A model generated the notes under the pieces. The model was given only the letters and a program-made list of their open reading frames with translations. It was not told the DNA's origin and did no database searches. Made by a program: the position numbers and the translations under genes. A stretch of 64,000 bases of DNA from Anaerolineaceae bacterium (GTDB lineage Bacteria > Chloroflexota > Anaerolineae > Anaerolineales > Villigracilaceae), in NCBI GenBank assembly GCA_009885945.1, contig VFJR01000043.1, positions 1 through 64,000 of the forward strand, read 5' to 3'. This document shows positions 181 to 40,715 of the stretch, piece by piece (the stretch's first letter is position 1; each line of letters begins with the position of its first letter).

Positions 181-2172
181 ATGAGTCACCCTGAACAGCC
201 AGACCATACACAACCGAACACCCAAAAAAATCCACAACCATCTATATTTGAGAGAAAGTCCAGCCACCAGCCAGAACGCACTTTGCGTTCACGCTTTATT
301 GGCAAGGCTCTCCCTACTGCAGATGCGGGCCACGAGACCATAGGAAAAACGGTCGGGCTGGCAGTTTTTGCATCCGATGCGCTTTCATCTAATGCCTATG
401 CCACTCAAGAAATTTTGGCAATTTTGGCAGCAGTTGGCTTGGAAAAAGGATTAGGCTACGTATTCCCGATCTCCATTGCGATTGTTCTACTCCTAATCAT
501 CGTGACAGTCTCCTATGAACAGATTATTCACTCATACCCAGATGGCGGCGGTGCCTATATTGTTGCCCGCGATAATCTTGGCGAACTCTCTGCCTTGATT
601 GCGGCGTCAGCACTGTTAATGGATTACATTCTCACAGTTTCAGTTTCCATATCATCCGGGGTGGCGCAAATTGTTTCAGCCTTCCCAGCCGTATTTGAAT
701 ATCGAGTTTACATTGCTGTAGTAGCAGTCTTCTTTATCATGCTGATCAATCTGCGTGGTGTAAGAGAATCTGGTGCGACAATTGCCATCCCAAGTTTTAT
801 GTTCATTATTGTTATGTTCGTTACGATAGCAGTTGGGTTGGTCAAATATTTGAGCGGCTCACTAGGCGTTGTGATTGACCCGCCTGAACTTGTTGAAGTG
901 CATGTTGGACTGACAGCCGTCACCCCATTCCTGCTTTTACACGCATTTTCAAGCGGCACATCCGCTTTGACAGGCATTGAAGCAATCTCTAATGGGATTA
1001 CCGCCTTTAAGGAACCCCGCAGTAAAAATGCGGCAATTACGCTAATCTGGATGTCGGTTATTCTCTCCAGTCTGTTTCTTGGAATATCATTCCTTTCGGC
1101 TCATATCTCTGCGGTACCCTCCGAATTTGAAACTGTTATTTCGCAATTGGCGCGTACTGTCTTCAACGGTCAAAACTTCTTTTATATCGTCGTAATTCTA
1201 TTTACCACTATCATTTTGCTGCTTGCCGCAAATACAGCCTTTGCTGGTTTTCCGCGCTTGAGCGCAATCATGGCAAAAGACGGCTTTTTGCCTCGTCAAT
1301 TAACGTACCGCGGCAGTCGGCTTGTTTATACACGCGGCATTGTAGCATTAACAATTATCGCATCCCTATTGATAATTCTTTTCCAAGCTAGTGTAACGCG
1401 CCTAATTCCTTTGTACGCCATCGGTGTTTTCCTTTCCTTCACCTTTTCACAGTTTGGCATGGCATTCCGCTGGTGGAGATGCGGACATCTTAAACTGGGT
1501 CAGGAAATCGTTGAGGCAGGTTCAACCTTGCGCTATGATCCTCGCTGGAAGTTAAAAATGGTAATGAATGGTTTTGGGGCAACATGTACCGCGTTGGTTA
1601 TGCTGGTTTTTGCTGTTACAAAATTTGTAGACGGCGCCTACGTTGTACTAATTCTCATCCCTGTTCTTGTTACTATTCTATGGTCGATTCACCGCCACTA
1701 TGTCAAACTTGCAGCAAAACTCTCCTTAGAAAACTTCGGGGCATTGCCGCCCCAAGCATCGCGCCATCGCATCATTATGCCTGTCAGCGGCGTACATCAA
1801 GGCTCACTGGCGGCACTGCGTTATGCACGCTCTCTTTCAGATGATGTCACGGCATTGCACGTTTCCACAGACCCCGAGGAAACAAAACGTGTGCGAGAGA
1901 AATGGAATTTATGGGGTGAAGGTGTGCGTTTAGTGGTCATTGATTCTCAATATCGCCTATTGCTTGAACCTTTGCTTGAATACATTGACGATATTCTAGA
2001 AAAACGCCAGCCGGGTGAAATCATCACCATTGTTGTGCCCGAGTTTGTATCCACTAACAAATTCAGCGGGGCTTTACATACAAACACAGCCAGTATATTA
2101 AGAAACAACCTGCGCTATCAAGAAGGTATTGTAATTACCAACGTACCTTATCATGTAAAAGAGAACATCTAA
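181..2172 (+). CDS. kimA: KimA-like potassium importer (APC superfamily)
   Basis: A 663-residue APC-superfamily transporter resembling Bacillus subtilis KimA (YdaO), a high-affinity K+/H+ symporter. The N-terminal ~55 residues are hydrophilic, residues ~60-510 hold about 12 membrane segments, and ~540-663 form a cytosolic domain that in KimA binds c-di-AMP. The SDALSSNAY motif supplies D66 and Y73, and LTGIE supplies T264 and E267; these match residues reported to line the K+ site of KimA. The ATG at 181 has only a weak GGAA ahead of it. A TATAAT lies at 61-66 without a convincing -35, and no c-di-AMP riboswitch was recognised in bases 1-180. Two RCK genes follow, fitting a K+ homeostasis locus. 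Family membership is fairly sure; another APC permease is the alternative. Confidence 0.85.
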   Translation: MSHPEQPDHTQPNTQKNPQPSIFERKSSHQPERTLRSRFIGKALPTADAGHETIGKTVGLAVFASDALSSNAYATQEILAILAAVGLEKGLGYVFPISIAIVLLLIIVTVSYEQIIHSYPDGGGAYIVARDNLGELSALIAASALLMDYILTVSVSISSGVAQIVSAFPAVFEYRVYIAVVAVFFIMLINLRGVRESGATIAIPSFMFIIVMFVTIAVGLVKYLSGSLGVVIDPPELVEVHVGLTAVTPFLLLHAFSSGTSALTGIEAISNGITAFKEPRSKNAAITLIWMSVILSSLFLGISFLSAHISAVPSEFETVISQLARTVFNGQNFFYIVVILFTTIILLLAANTAFAGFPRLSAIMAKDGFLPRQLTYRGSRLVYTRGIVALTIIASLLIILFQASVTRLIPLYAIGVFLSFTFSQFGMAFRWWRCGHLKLGQEIVEAGSTLRYDPRWKLKMVMNGFGATCTALVMLVFAVTKFVDGAYVVLILIPVLVTILWSIHRHYVKLAAKLSLENFGALPPQASRHRIIMPVSGVHQGSLAALRYARSLSDDVTALHVSTDPEETKRVREKWNLWGEGVRLVVIDSQYRLLLEPLLEYIDDILEKRQPGEIITIVVPEFVSTNKFSGALHTNTASILRNNLRYQEGIVITNVPYHVKENI

Positions 2173-2264
2173 AACCGTCTATCGTCTTACAAGTTTTATA
2201 AACAGTGTTGAGATGGAAAACTTGTGGATGTTTTGATCATTGAAAAAACTGTAAGGAGAATTTT

Positions 2265-2927
2265 ATGAATTTCGTTGTGATCGGATGCGGCCGTGTGGGC
2301 GCAGAACTTGCTTATAAACTTTATAAAAGCGGTCATCAAGTGGTGGTAGTTGATGCCAACCAAAAGTCCTTTGAAAGATTAGCGCCTGATTTTCGCGGAC
2401 GTACTACCGAGGGTCCCGCTCTTTCCAAAGACACCATGGACCGCGCAGGGCTAGATAAGGCAGATGGTGTTGCAGTCGTTACTAACATAGACACATTGAA
2501 TGCCGTCATCGGTCATACCGTACGCACTCAGTATCCAAATGTTAAACAGGTTTTGGTGCGCAACTACGATCCCGCCATGCGAAAAATGCTTGAGACTTTT
2601 AATTTGCAACTGGTCAGTTCCACAGCTTGGGGCGCAGAACGCTTGCAGGAATTGTTAATCGACCCTGACTTCCGTTCGGTCTTTTCGGCAGGAAATGGTG
2701 AAGTAGAGTTATATGAATTTACCATCACACCAGAATGGAACGAGCGCTCAATTTCCGATTTAATATCTGCCTGCAAAGACATCACCATGGTTGCTTTAAC
2801 ACGCGCGGGGCATGCCCACATGCCGGGTGTTATACCAACCTTTCAAGCTGGTGATATTTTGACCGTCAGCGCAACAATGGAGGGCGTAAAGGTTTTACGT
2901 TCGCAATTACATGGGGTGGAGGCTTAA
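2265..2927 (+). CDS. RCK protein, TrkA/KtrA type (first copy)
   Basis: A 220-residue cytosolic protein with an RCK_N Rossmann domain (GCGRVG near residue 8, acidic VVVVD at the end of the second strand) and an RCK_C domain from ~140. Such proteins bind NAD(H) or nucleotides and gate Trk/Ktr K+ channels; RCK_C domains of some Ktr proteins bind c-di-AMP. The start has a good AAGGAG. The stop TAA directly abuts the ATG of the second RCK gene, so the two are probably translated together. No TrkH or KtrB pore subunit is present nearby; the neighbour is the KimA-like importer instead. Confidence 0.85.
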   Translation: MNFVVIGCGRVGAELAYKLYKSGHQVVVVDANQKSFERLAPDFRGRTTEGPALSKDTMDRAGLDKADGVAVVTNIDTLNAVIGHTVRTQYPNVKQVLVRNYDPAMRKMLETFNLQLVSSTAWGAERLQELLIDPDFRSVFSAGNGEVELYEFTITPEWNERSISDLISACKDITMVALTRAGHAHMPGVIPTFQAGDILTVSATMEGVKVLRSQLHGVEA

Positions 2928-3644
2928 ATGATTAGCAAGGATAATAAAAAAATGTTTGTGATGATTGCCGGGGGCGGGCGCACTGGCTCACAGCTGGCTC
3001 AGTCACTGGTGGCGCAGGGATACAATGTGCGTCTGATCGAGAATCGCGCCGAGTTATTACCTCGTTTACATCGCGAACTGGAAACTGAAGTAATTTATCA
3101 GGGAAACCCTGCAGACCCGCAAGTGCTAGAAAACGCCGGCTTGCGTGAAGCTCAGGTAATGGTTGCTTGCACGACAGATGATGCAACCAATTTGGTTTTG
3201 TGCTACATGGCGCGCGAGATATTTAATGTAACCCGCACCATTGCAAGGATCAACAACCCTAATACAGCCTGGTTATACAACAATATATTCCATGTAGATG
3301 AGAAAATTAATCAAGCAGATGTCATGTCACGGCTGATTCAAGAGGAAATGTCGCTGGGCGATATGATGACTTTAATGAAACTGCGCCGCGGGAAATATTC
3401 CTTTGTAGAAGAAAAAGTACCGCCCGGCGCAAAAGCGATTGGCGTTGCGATTAAAGACCTAGGCTTGCCAGAACAATGTGTGATTGCGGGTATTTTCCGT
3501 AACGGGCAGATGACTCTGCCGCGCGGGATTACAACTTTAATGGAAGAGGATGAAGTCCTTGCTATTGCAGACCCGGAAGGCGCGGTTGCACTGGCAAAAC
3601 TACTGGAACCAGCTGAGTACCCTGCCAAACCCAGGAAAAAGTAG
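2928..3644 (+). CDS. RCK protein, TrkA/KtrA type (second copy)
   Basis: A 238-residue protein with RCK_N (GGGRTG near residue 17, acidic LIEN at the end of strand two) and RCK_C domains, ending in a basic tail. It is clearly diverged from the preceding RCK protein, so this is an old pair rather than a fresh duplication. It starts immediately after the upstream stop codon. Role by family: nucleotide-sensing regulator of K+ transport. Whether it works with the first RCK protein as a hetero-octamer, and whether the target is the KimA-like importer or a pore encoded elsewhere, cannot be told from sequence. Confidence 0.85.
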   Translation: MISKDNKKMFVMIAGGGRTGSQLAQSLVAQGYNVRLIENRAELLPRLHRELETEVIYQGNPADPQVLENAGLREAQVMVACTTDDATNLVLCYMAREIFNVTRTIARINNPNTAWLYNNIFHVDEKINQADVMSRLIQEEMSLGDMMTLMKLRRGKYSFVEEKVPPGAKAIGVAIKDLGLPEQCVIAGIFRNGQMTLPRGITTLMEEDEVLAIADPEGAVALAKLLEPAEYPAKPRKK

Positions 3645-34704: not shown

Positions 34705-36153
34705 TTATTCCGCCGCAGGCAAAACCACAAAAAAAGTAGAACCCACGCCGATGGTCGATTCAACCCAAACCCTGCCATTGTGACTATCTACAATAGATTT
34801 AACAATCGCTAAGCCAAGTCCTGTGCCAACAATATCATCAGATGCATTGGTTGCACGGTAAAACTTCTCAAAAATACGGCTTTGCTCATTTACTGGAATG
34901 CCAGGACCTGTATCTATTATGTTAAAAATAACCTGACGATCTTCGCTTCGTAAATTAATTTCAACAGTACCGTGAGTAGGCGTATATTTAATAGCATTTT
35001 CCAAGATATTATCCATCATTTGACGAATGCGAATTGGGTTAGCAGTGACAGATGGAATTATGTCTGCAATCTTTGCGTCCACTACTATTTTCTTCTTTTT
35101 CACCTGCCCATCCAGTGCGGTTAACGCTTGTTGCAGAATATTTTCCAACTGCACTGATTCGCGGCGGGTATCAAACCCTGCTTCCATACGGCTCAAATCC
35201 AACAAATCGTTCACCAGCGATGTAATGTGTTTTACCGCATCTTCGAGACGGCGCATAAAATCTTTTTGTTGTTCGTTTAATTCCCCAACACGTCCAATCA
35301 ATTCCGTATACCCAAGCACAGCAGTAAGCGGCGAGCGCAAATCATGCGACACAGTATTGATGAACTCGCTTTTCACTCGATCTGCTTCCCGTATATATGT
35401 TATATCTTGTAACGATAGAACAAACCCAACGTTTGGAATAGGGCTAAGTTGGGTATTAAAGACCTTTCCACCATCAAAATCAATTTCATGATTTTTCAGA
35501 ATTTGATCGTCCGCTCGGCTTAATAAAGCGATGACCTCCGGATGTGCGATCACATCTAGTAATAAGCGGCCAATTGCTTTGCTCTCGTCTACTTTAAAGA
35601 CTTGGCAAGCAGTGTTGTTGATTAAGACAACCTGCTTGTTTTCATCAAGAATAATTACCCCGTCTCGTGTATTGGCAAAAATTGCTTCGAGTTTCGCGCG
35701 CTCTGCTTCTGATATTTTTGCTTTTTCTGCCAGAGAAGATGTGGTCTTTTTAACTTCACGGCGAAGCCAGTCTCCCAACTTACGAGCGCGAGCAAGGCTG
35801 GCTTTTACAGCGTTAACAATGTCATCAGTTCGCAACGGAGGGTAAATATAGCCGCTCAACCCGCTGTACAGTACGGCTTTGGCAATATTACTTGTATCTT
35901 TTTCTGCATAAAGCAAAATAGGCAGTGTCGGAAAACGGTCCAGCATAACTTCCGCTTCTTCAAACCCATTCTTGCCATTGAATTTTTCCCCAATGAGTAC
36001 CAACGAAGGCGTTGATTCAGCCAACGCCTTAATCAGTCCGCTTGAGTCATGCACAATCGCAACTTGATACCCCGCCGCTTTCAGCGCAGGTTCCATTAGC
36101 TTCAATATAGGGGAGGCGTCTAGCGCCAGAAGAATTAATTCGCGTTTAGGCAT
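34705..36153 (-). CDS. Sensor histidine kinase with degenerate receiver and PAS domains
   Basis: A 482-residue soluble kinase. Residues 1-125 are a receiver-like fold in which the phosphoacceptor position reads LVLIGEKF (Gly55 instead of Asp). A helix (~126-150), a PAS domain (~153-255, DGVIILDENKQVVLINN), HisKA with VSHDLRSPL (H270) and HATPase_c with NAIKYTP, DTGPGIP and GTGLGLAIV follow. It lacks membrane segments, so it probably senses a cytosolic cue or a partner. It lies 18 bp after the receiver-GAF gene in the same direction. The catalytic kinase core is intact, but no response regulator with an intact Asp is nearby. Confidence 0.9.
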   Translation of the reverse strand: MPKRELILLALDASPILKLMEPALKAAGYQVAIVHDSSGLIKALAESTPSLVLIGEKFNGKNGFEEAEVMLDRFPTLPILLYAEKDTSNIAKAVLYSGLSGYIYPPLRTDDIVNAVKASLARARKLGDWLRREVKKTTSSLAEKAKISEAERAKLEAIFANTRDGVIILDENKQVVLINNTACQVFKVDESKAIGRLLLDVIAHPEVIALLSRADDQILKNHEIDFDGGKVFNTQLSPIPNVGFVLSLQDITYIREADRVKSEFINTVSHDLRSPLTAVLGYTELIGRVGELNEQQKDFMRRLEDAVKHITSLVNDLLDLSRMEAGFDTRRESVQLENILQQALTALDGQVKKKKIVVDAKIADIIPSVTANPIRIRQMMDNILENAIKYTPTHGTVEINLRSEDRQVIFNIIDTGPGIPVNEQSRIFEKFYRATNASDDIVGTGLGLAIVKSIVDSHNGRVWVESTIGVGSTFFVVLPAAE

Positions 36154-36171
36154 AAATAAAAATGTAATCTA

Positions 36172-37332
36172 TTAATTTTTTGTGTCCGCAGGATGAGGAA
36201 TCGTATTTTCAGAAGCGCGCCCTAAGCGCATCAATGAAGTATGGATCGTTTGCAACGCTTGGCGGTGAGGCTCACTCAATGTACTATCACCCAGCAAGGA
36301 ATTTAAAGGAAACATAGATGTTTGAATTTCTTGGCGAATGGCGTTACGCGCCGCGTCCAAGGCTGCCATACGGCTCTTTTCGCCGGCGCGAGCCATTTCC
36401 ATGTTAGTTTCCACCGCATGGAACAACCGCGCATTAACCAATGAAATTGCCGCGTAATCTGCAACGGCTTCCAACAAAACCAATGATGCTTTGGAAATTT
36501 CTGTATCTGCTTTACGCGCAATAATCAGCAAACCAATCACCTCGCCGCCCATTTTCAATGGAATCACACCAGCAGATTTCCCCAAGCCTGCAATTTTAAA
36601 CTTTTGCAAAGCAGCGCCATTCATTACCAAGCTTTCGCCAGAAAGCCCAACCATTGAGCTAATGCCATCATCCATAGGCTGACCCATTTTTTTTGACCAT
36701 GCGTCAGGCAAACCCCGATGCGCAGATAACAAAAACGCCTTTGTCTTATCATCCTTTAATACAAACCAAGCAACTTCAGCTTCTGCAATTTGCAATGAAC
36801 TTTCCAAAATACGGTCAAAGATCATACGTTGATCAGGGCTAGAGACAATTGCCTTGCCAATCGTCAGCAAACTAGTCAGGTCACGCACCCGCCGTTGAAG
36901 TTCATCATTCATACCCTTCACTTGCACATCTAATTTTTGGCGCGCACGTGTTTCGTGCGTTTGCCTTAATGCGCGCTCCACCGCAGAAACCACCTCTGCA
37001 TCACGCGCGGGCCAAAACAATACATCTGTGGCGCCAAGACGAAACGCTTGAATAATGTCGCCTTCCTGCCCTTTTTCTGCAATCACCATCATGGGCAGTC
37101 TTATCCCTTGCGAAGCAAGTGCAACCAGCAGGTCTTTCCCGCTCAAGCCTGGTAAATTTAAATTAAGCAGAAGCAGGTCTGGGGGCGATTGAAGCGCTTC
37201 TTTTATCGCAGAGCCAGAGTCACTCACAATCGTTACCTGATATCCAAGCGGCTGAAGAGATTGCCTGCCTATTAAATCGCTGATGTCTGGGTCAGTTTCA
37301 ATAATGAGAATGCGTTCCCCGGTGGGTTTCAT
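36172..37332 (-). CDS. Receiver-like plus GAF domain protein
   Basis: A 386-residue protein: receiver-like domain (1-125) with acidic ETDPD and the usual DLxLPG reading LLLLNLNLPG, so the phosphoacceptor Asp is replaced by Asn57. A helical linker (~128-155), a GAF domain (~155-310, DGISSMVGLSGESLVMN, GVIPLKMGGEVIGLLIIARK) and a C-terminal helical pair (~315-370) that looks like a HisKA dimerisation hairpin without its His follow. No HATPase. It is probably a phosphorylation-independent sensor acting with the adjacent kinase. Confidence 0.82.
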   Translation of the reverse strand: MKPTGERILIIETDPDISDLIGRQSLQPLGYQVTIVSDSGSAIKEALQSPPDLLLLNLNLPGLSGKDLLVALASQGIRLPMMVIAEKGQEGDIIQAFRLGATDVLFWPARDAEVVSAVERALRQTHETRARQKLDVQVKGMNDELQRRVRDLTSLLTIGKAIVSSPDQRMIFDRILESSLQIAEAEVAWFVLKDDKTKAFLLSAHRGLPDAWSKKMGQPMDDGISSMVGLSGESLVMNGAALQKFKIAGLGKSAGVIPLKMGGEVIGLLIIARKADTEISKASLVLLEAVADYAAISLVNARLFHAVETNMEMARAGEKSRMAALDAARNAIRQEIQTSMFPLNSLLGDSTLSEPHRQALQTIHTSLMRLGRASENTIPHPADTKN

Positions 37333-38510: not shown

Positions 38511-40715
38511 ATGAATCCGCAACCCTATATCCCAGGATTAGGACCTGCTGAGCCCGGTCCCCTTTCTCGATTTTTACCGCCTCTTGAACAGGGAGTTATC
38601 TCAACTTGGCTGTCGCTTCAATCTTTAAAAGGAAACTGGCTGCTGGATCCATTCGGCTTTTCTCCACGCCTGATCATTGAAGCGGCACGGGCTGGGTATC
38701 GCGTTTTGGTAACTGCGAACAATCCAGTCAACCGTTTTTTAATAGAGACCTTCGCCAACCCGCCCGCCGAATCAGAATTTGTTGCGGCGCTGGCAGATAT
38801 CGGCGCAGTCAAAAAAGGGGATGAAAGACTCGAAGTTCATTTTCAATCCTTATATAGTACAACTTGTGAAAAATGCAGTCAGCAGATCCAAGCGGAGTCT
38901 TTTTTATGGCGCAAAGGAGAAGATGCGCCCTATGCGCGTGTTTACGAATGTAAGTATTGCGGCGACTCAGGCGAAAGAATATCAACAGAAGATGATCTAG
39001 CGCGCGCAAAGAAAATTGCTGCAACCGATATATTGCACCGCTCACGCGCCTTTGAAAAAGTTGCCGCGCTACACGATCCAGATCGTGTTTACGCAGAAGA
39101 GGCTATTGAACATTATTTGCCGCGCCCTTTGTATGTGTTAACCACGATTATTAGCCGCTTAGACAGTTTGAAATTATCACCTGAACGCCTGCGGGCATTG
39201 CACGCTCTTTTACTAGTAGCTTGTGATGCAGGTAATACTTTGTGGGCGCATCCCGCAGAACGCCCGCGCCCAAAACAATTAACCACTTCAACTCAATTCC
39301 GCGAGCATAATGTGTGGCTTCAGCTTGAGCGTGGACTTAGTCTATGGACAGAAACAGGCTCATCTGTAGTATGTGAAGCGTGGCCCTCTAAAATTCCAGA
39401 GGAAGGCGGCATCTTAATCTATGAGGGGCGATTAAAAGAGTTGGCGCATGAAGTCAAAAAAGAAATTCCTGTTGCCGCTGTGATCACATCTGTGCCGCGA
39501 CCCAATCAAGCCTTTTGGACTCTCTCTGCATTGTGGGCAGGCTGGCTGTGGGGGCGCGAAGCAGTAGAGCCATACAAAGTTGCGTTACGCCGCCGCCGTT
39601 ATGATTGGGGTTGGAATGCAACGGCATTGAATTCTGCGTTTCATCATTTAAGTGAGTTACTGCCAGATAACACGCCCATGTTTGGTTTATTACCCGAACC
39701 CGAGCCGGCTTTCTTAACTTCTGTATTAAGCGCTGCGAACACATCGGGTTTCTTATTGCAAAGTATTGCGCTGCGCACAATCCATGATCCTGTTCAAGTG
39801 ATTTGGACGTGGAAGCCTATAAAGCGTACACATAGTATGCGTGATGAAACAAAAATAAAAAAAGCGATGATTACTTTTTTACAAAACAGAGGCGAGCCTG
39901 CAGGATATTTACATATTCACGCGGCTGGGCTGATATCCCTTACAAACGAAAATGCTTTAAAGCAACCTGCTGAAGAATTTGATGAATCAATACGTAATAC
40001 ACAGAACTTACTAGAGTCGATTTTAAAAGATGATCTCTCTTTTGTGCATTACTCAACAGGGGAAGGTGTAGAAACAGGTATGTGGGGCTTGAACCAGCCG
40101 AACACAGAAGAGTCATTATCAGACCGCGTTGAAATAGCGATTGTTACCTTTCTGCAGAAAAATCCCGACGCACTATTTTTGGATATCGAAAATGAGATCA
40201 ACCCGAAATTTACAGGATTAACTACACCGTCTAAAGGCTTAATCTATGCAATTCTTAATTCATATGCATTAAAAGAATCTGGGTATTGGAATTTACGTGC
40301 AGAGGATATGGCTTCTGCGCGAAAGGATGAACTAGCCAATATGTATGATTTGCTAGATGGCATAGGGAAAAGACTTGGTTATCAAACTGGCAGAGATGAA
40401 AAAACTTTATTCTGGGAGGATGATCAAAAGCCCGCATTTTTATTTTACCCGCTGGCTTCGGCTTTAATCGGGCGCGCGCTGGACGCATCGGCTGTGAACA
40501 CGATCATTGTTTTACCGGGCAGCCGCGCCGCGCTCGCCGCTTATAAACAACAGCGCGATCCTTCTCTTGCGGCGCGCACAAAAAATTATCGAATAGTAAA
40601 GTACCGTTTGTTACGAGCCATTGCTGAACTGCCAATTTTGACACGCGAGACATTTGAAGAGCAGCTCGCCAGCGATCCTGTTGAACATTCCAGCGGGCAA
40701 ATGATGATGTTTTAA
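38511..40715 (+). CDS. DNA-methylase-like protein with degenerate catalytic motifs
   Basis: A 734-residue protein I do not recognise by name. Residues 43-79 (LLDPFGFSPRLIIEAARAG, NNPVNRFL) look like motif I of DUF1156-type DNA methylases (DPFxGxG...NP). Four cysteines (C119, C122, C147, C150) form a zinc ribbon. Residues 322-348 (VITSVPRPNQAFWTLSALW) fall where active enzymes have DPPYY...LSDFFYVW, but DPPY is lost. The C-terminal part (~555-734) is helical with VEIAIVTFLQKNPDALF and a conserved-looking IIVLPGSRAALAAYKQQRDP. The frame is intact. It may be a DNA-binding, non-catalytic relative. Alternative: an unrelated Rossmann protein. Confidence 0.6.
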   Translation: MNPQPYIPGLGPAEPGPLSRFLPPLEQGVISTWLSLQSLKGNWLLDPFGFSPRLIIEAARAGYRVLVTANNPVNRFLIETFANPPAESEFVAALADIGAVKKGDERLEVHFQSLYSTTCEKCSQQIQAESFLWRKGEDAPYARVYECKYCGDSGERISTEDDLARAKKIAATDILHRSRAFEKVAALHDPDRVYAEEAIEHYLPRPLYVLTTIISRLDSLKLSPERLRALHALLLVACDAGNTLWAHPAERPRPKQLTTSTQFREHNVWLQLERGLSLWTETGSSVVCEAWPSKIPEEGGILIYEGRLKELAHEVKKEIPVAAVITSVPRPNQAFWTLSALWAGWLWGREAVEPYKVALRRRRYDWGWNATALNSAFHHLSELLPDNTPMFGLLPEPEPAFLTSVLSAANTSGFLLQSIALRTIHDPVQVIWTWKPIKRTHSMRDETKIKKAMITFLQNRGEPAGYLHIHAAGLISLTNENALKQPAEEFDESIRNTQNLLESILKDDLSFVHYSTGEGVETGMWGLNQPNTEESLSDRVEIAIVTFLQKNPDALFLDIENEINPKFTGLTTPSKGLIYAILNSYALKESGYWNLRAEDMASARKDELANMYDLLDGIGKRLGYQTGRDEKTLFWEDDQKPAFLFYPLASALIGRALDASAVNTIIVLPGSRAALAAYKQQRDPSLAARTKNYRIVKYRLLRAIAELPILTRETFEEQLASDPVEHSSGQMMMF

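Follow-up and report, generated by a model that had tools for sequence, protein, structure and literature searches.

An uninterrupted gene of 734 codons in a 64,000-nucleotide stretch of Anaerolineaceae DNA (the window; positions 1 to 64,000 of contig VFJR01000043.1) encodes what is, at a probability we put at roughly 0.6, a domesticated and putatively dead descendant of a methylase-nuclease fusion that would bind DNA, or help to maintain it, without catalysing a reaction. Its features are collected in Table 1.

Table 1. Features of the 734-aa protein and its gene, in window coordinates.
Feature	Position	Strand	Basis
Pseudo-methyltransferase/pseudo-nuclease gene (putative), 734 aa	38511..40715	+	Open frame; stop-free orthologues; dN/dS 0.08-0.14
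Class I methyltransferase-like domain (predicted), residues 1-436	38511..39818	+	AF2 pLDDT 71, pTM 0.70; VIA-align; profile match to 2zie, RsrI
Altered motif I, D46-P-F-G-F-S-P52 (canonical DPFxGxG)	38646..38666	+	A3 alignment; DPFGxxP nearly invariant across Anaerolineae
TANNP after strand 2; A69 in place of acidic ribose-binding residue	38712..38726	+	A3 alignment
Zinc ribbon, Cys119/122/147/150, within insertion after strand 2	38865..38960	+	Four Cys invariant, 33-sequence family alignments
Altered motif IV block, S327-V-P-R-P-N-Q...ALWAGWL (canonical DPPY...)	39477..39548	+	A3 alignment; conservation 0.92 vs mean 0.72
Conserved basic RRRRYDW patch, residues 360-366, next to old motif IV	39588..39608	+	Family conservation
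Conserved DRVE...TP...SY segment, residues 536-596, winged-helix-like by pattern only	40116..40298	+	Family alignment; low model confidence
PD-(D/E)XK nuclease-like domain (probable), residues 600-712	40308..40646	+	pLDDT about 68-87 over 601-710 (full model); VIA-align
Degenerate nuclease core, T632, Y646, L648 vs D, E, E of relatives	40404..40454	+	Alignment with relatives

The frame is intact, as the initial annotation had stated: its ATG start and full length are kept in orthologues from 24 Chloroflexota contigs, which are 55-71% identical to it and nearly all full-length, and none of the 22 complete copies among them contains an internal stop. Whole-genome searches place one copy on the chromosome of each genome, second rows (e.g. 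in G224) being other fragments of the one gene rather than extra copies. With a profile built from the protein's family (A3, used for alignments and genome counts), full-length members were found in nearly every genome of at least 90% completeness from the window's family (28 of 30) and from a sister family, f2 (12 of 13), and in several further Chloroflexota families as well; most other families of Anaerolineae lack a member, so this is a core gene of part of the class and not of the whole. Close orthologues differ with a dN/dS of 0.08-0.14, and the gene is under purifying selection and apparently vertically inherited. One family member (L142) has its two halves in separate, overlapping frames, at 1221-2234 and at 2116-3105, which may reflect a gene split or a frameshift. 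In a frame of 1045 aa elsewhere (L072:2347-5481), an N-terminus resembling DNA methylases continues into a C-terminus of the dihydroorotate dehydrogenase electron-transfer-like type, through either fusion or assembly error.

Scans of the window protein alone against Pfam and NCBIfam return no confident family, and PADLOC gives a weak match to MTase_II (E 0.0014), likewise no confident family. The family profile reaches further: it matches the solved N4/N6 methylases 2zie (E 1e-5) and RsrI (5e-5), both at motif I, in a register that puts the PRP motif on SPPY/DPPY, and the Pfam N6_N4_Mtase domain is matched in 7 of 33 family members and relatives. Against short DUF1156 proteins the profile scores 45-76 bits from motif I to motif IV, a match spanning the whole methylase region, and against motif-intact methylases of 549-949 aa it scores higher, 90-157 bits. 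By these profile matches and the predicted fold described below, the protein shares its ancestry with the DNA amino-methylases of the DUF1156-like/N4-N6 group, which have the class I fold.

The motif register of the initial annotation holds in the A3 alignment, where DPFGFSP falls on DPFMGGGTT/DPFCGSGVT of active enzymes, NNPV on D-x-NPV, the four cysteines on a zinc ribbon, and TSVPRPNQAFWTLSALWAGWL on TDPPYFD...ELSNFFYVWL or TDPPHGN..ELSLMWNAWL. Read along the same columns, active enzymes have DPFMGGGTT...DLNPV...TDPPYFD..ELSNFFYVWL or DPFCGSGVT...DINPT...TDPPHGN..ELSLMWNSWL, and the window protein DPFGFSPRL...ANNPV...TSVPRPNQAFWTLSALWAGWL. Column by column, therefore, other residues stand in for the glycine loop, for the acidic residue that follows strand 2 and for DPPY. 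The DPFxGxG SAM loop is replaced by D46-PFGFSP52; A69 occupies the place, three residues ahead of the proline, at which active enzymes and distant relatives alike have D or E; and motif IV, [DNS]PP[YFW] in amino-methyltransferases, reads SVPR, its first position being S in the window protein, while orthologues show A, G, I or V. Serine at this position, a residue used by some m4C enzymes, counts against inactivity. The earlier reading of an altered DPFxGxG and of SVPRP in place of DPPY is thus borne out, and the replacement residues are fixed across the order.

Because the full-length AF2 model (pLDDT 57.8) is too weak in the methylase half, residues 1-436 were modelled separately. Strands and helices of the predicted structure follow the class I order, in its best 50 rows (Z 10.5-12.5) a VIA-align search with it gives chains of this methyltransferase fold nearly without exception, and Foldseek concurs. 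RNA methyltransferases, Trm14/TrmN and 2cww for instance, account for several of the highest-ranking structures. The initial annotation had called for such a prediction and fold search, reasoning that a model lacking the class I fold would tell against it; as the model has this fold, that objection falls away.

How closely the protein belongs with the DUF1156-type methylases, to which it had been assigned, needs qualifying. Homology by profile stands. Both also show the order motif I, zinc ribbon, motif IV and aromatic/Leu-rich helix, the ribbon lying in the insertion that follows strand 2, which is where DUF1156-type and BREX type 3 methylases have their target recognition insert (PMC12839542). 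Strict membership does not stand, since the N-terminal PF06634 domain of these enzymes has no match in the window protein or anywhere in the genome; the protein further differs from them in its substituted catalytic motifs, its location outside any defence cluster and its additional PD-(D/E)XK-like C-terminus. The closest motif-intact relatives are N4/N6 methylases of other Chloroflexota (L128-L135, the 549-949 aa proteins mentioned above, with Pfam N6_N4_Mtase), which share the motif order but, unlike the window protein, keep DPFxGxG, DPPH/DPPF/DPPY and mostly the acidic residue after strand 2; none of them significantly matches its nuclease-like C-terminus. Within Chloroflexota a series can be laid out from motif-intact methylases, through intermediates with the SAM loop and without DPPY, to the fully altered Anaerolineales proteins, and in a tree the monophyly of the family against 16 motif-intact methylases is only moderately supported (0.75).

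The C-terminal domain was overlooked in the initial annotation. In VIA-align, residues 593-712 give Z of 4.8-7.3 to several independent families (EcoT38I 7.3, Tk-TIP26 6.8, YaeQ 5.7, Cdn1 5.4, DrdV 5.0, Card1 5.0, Bax1 and BstEII 4.8, with Can2 also among the rows), all of which we take to be members of the PD-(D/E)XK superfamily. Given these modest Z values and the diversity of the superfamily, residues 600-712 of the model are graded as probably PD-(D/E)XK-like, an assignment of moderate strength. Relatives outside Anaerolineae (L057, for instance) have a D-x13-E-V-E core in this domain, of the same kind as the D94...E111-x-E113 core of BamHI. EcoT38I and BamHI-like nucleases thus share the predicted fold, and their D-x13-E-x-E type of core recurs in the distant relatives, whereas the window protein lacks their acidic core residues: the D...(D/E)x(K/E) catalytic set is lost in the Anaerolineae members. 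A methylase and a nuclease fold on one chain also occur in Type IIG/IIL fusion enzymes such as DrdV or the TspDTI family (PMC3384240); the nuclease domain of DrdV is N-terminal (chain range 14-138), that of the window protein C-terminal, and the Anaerolineae members have neither set of catalytic residues.

Conservation is distributed in a telling way along the protein. In 41 Anaerolineae-clade sequences, the altered motifs I and IV are its best-conserved stretches (0.87 for the motif I segment and 0.92 for motif IV, against a mean of 0.72), whereas the nuclease core, at 0.61, is among the lowest. Simple decay predicts the reverse, which argues that the pocket has been repurposed; we infer that rebuilding has made it critical to the protein's present function, with the nuclease domain as a scaffold. 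The initial proposal, that selection maintains the fold for a role other than methylation, gains support from the predicted class I fold, the low dN/dS and the fixed replacements, and the DNA binding or regulation then suggested as its role is plausible. Inactive relatives of enzymes frequently turn into regulators.

The proposed course of events starts from a fused methylase-nuclease that would have lost both catalytic residue sets in Anaerolineae. Its descendant would bind nucleic acid via the kept recognition insertion and zinc ribbon, the basic RRRRYDW patch and the C-terminal domains, while the remodelled pocket, now lined by PRPNQAFW and carrying P52 where the glycine loop used to be, may hold another ligand, a base or a protein partner in place of SAM, and the protein would act non-catalytically in DNA binding or DNA maintenance. 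A more specific version, possible and advanced here tentatively, is a phylum-specific core DNA-maintenance factor whose SAM/base-flipping pocket was rebuilt, without catalysis, for a new ligand such as a flipped or damaged base, perhaps, in other classes, as a partner of PolX and a TPR protein.

The neighbourhoods differ between clades. In the window's family the gene adjoins a conserved group of histidine kinase, response-regulator-GAF and glycosyltransferase 2 genes; the first two form a pair on the opposite strand (34705-37332 in the window) that lies beside the gene in most orthologous loci. The ftsZ gene 3' of it was dismissed as a functional neighbour, its downstream position not being conserved, and in many family genomes, the window's not among them, the homologue is followed by a gene for a secreted CAP-like protein (L001:10243-11274 and equivalents). 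Two other family-level clades (f19 and f31) have the homologue behind a gene for an acidic-tailed TPR protein, and polX directly upstream of the TPR gene where the contig extends far enough, a recurrent same-strand cluster (L059:1426-7744, L055-L057, L060, L061, L063, L068, L071, L073, L074); in a third (f41) the TPR gene and the homologue are separated by a SPOR/WD40 lipoprotein-like gene. The polX-TPR cluster hints, by gene order, at DNA maintenance in other classes; it is absent in Anaerolineae, so its meaning may not carry over. A single-sequence search of the window genome returned no TPR partner, and in Anaerolineae a TPR profile met only generic TPR stretches, the TPR protein's own C-terminal domain not being found there. 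That domain, of about 110 aa (FIEEMGKTG...GxVEPRV...GN.Y; L057:1892-2716), is conserved and has no Pfam name; a HIRAN-like domain, suspected from its pattern, is not claimed, as Pfam and PDB profiles show TPR alone.

Other explanations account for parts of this evidence. The main rival of a non-catalytic role is that the conserved pocket could instead signal new catalytic activity, DPFGxxP and PRPNQAFWxLSALWAGWL together forming a site that acts on nucleic acid or a small molecule. Conservation of the altered motifs beyond what scaffolding needs speaks for it, yet we consider it unlikely, given that the SAM-loop glycines have given way to bulky residues and proline and the acidic ribose ligand to alanine, that there is no recognisable alternative active site, and that the protein falls into no Pfam or NCBIfam family with confidence. 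Binding of RNA, in ribosome or tRNA maturation, would suit the RNA methyltransferases among the top structural matches; since that fold class is widely shared, the significant sequence relatives are DNA N4/N6 methylases and the fused domain resembles DNA nucleases, this is quite improbable.

Genome defence, raised in the initial annotation, would cast the protein as, say, a sensor that evolved from a methylase of restriction or BREX-related type. In favour of this, DUF1156-type methylases, which occur in BREX-related systems (PMC12839542), are among its relatives, and there is the weak PADLOC match. The idea has found no support and is very doubtful: the gene is single-copy, order-wide and slow-evolving, its homologues sit beside housekeeping genes (kinase/regulator/glycosyltransferase or PolX/TPR) and not in defence islands, and neither a defence-gene neighbourhood nor a patchy, mobile distribution was seen at the loci examined. 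Plasmid and phage collections do not contain the protein, and two scans with motif-intact relatives as queries returned no viral relatives. Hardly credible, finally, is a decaying relic under relaxed selection, which the variable nuclease core might suggest, against frames intact everywhere, invariant altered motifs and the dN/dS values given above.

As a pseudoenzyme seemingly derived from a methylase-nuclease fusion, the protein would be of a kind already known, and its component folds are known too; what the open-access literature seems not to have described is that one chain has lost both catalytic sets, that the replacement pocket is conserved and that these changes are fixed throughout the order, and no account of the family was found there. 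It is unusual that a core gene should carry two DNA-acting enzyme domains on one chain, both without catalytic residues, with the replaced pocket as the best-conserved part. A widespread unnamed protein that none of the searched libraries describes is now given a domain architecture and an ancestry, and the graded natural series within one phylum, from motif-intact methylases through intermediates to the altered Anaerolineales proteins, makes the loss of catalysis and the gain of a new role directly testable.
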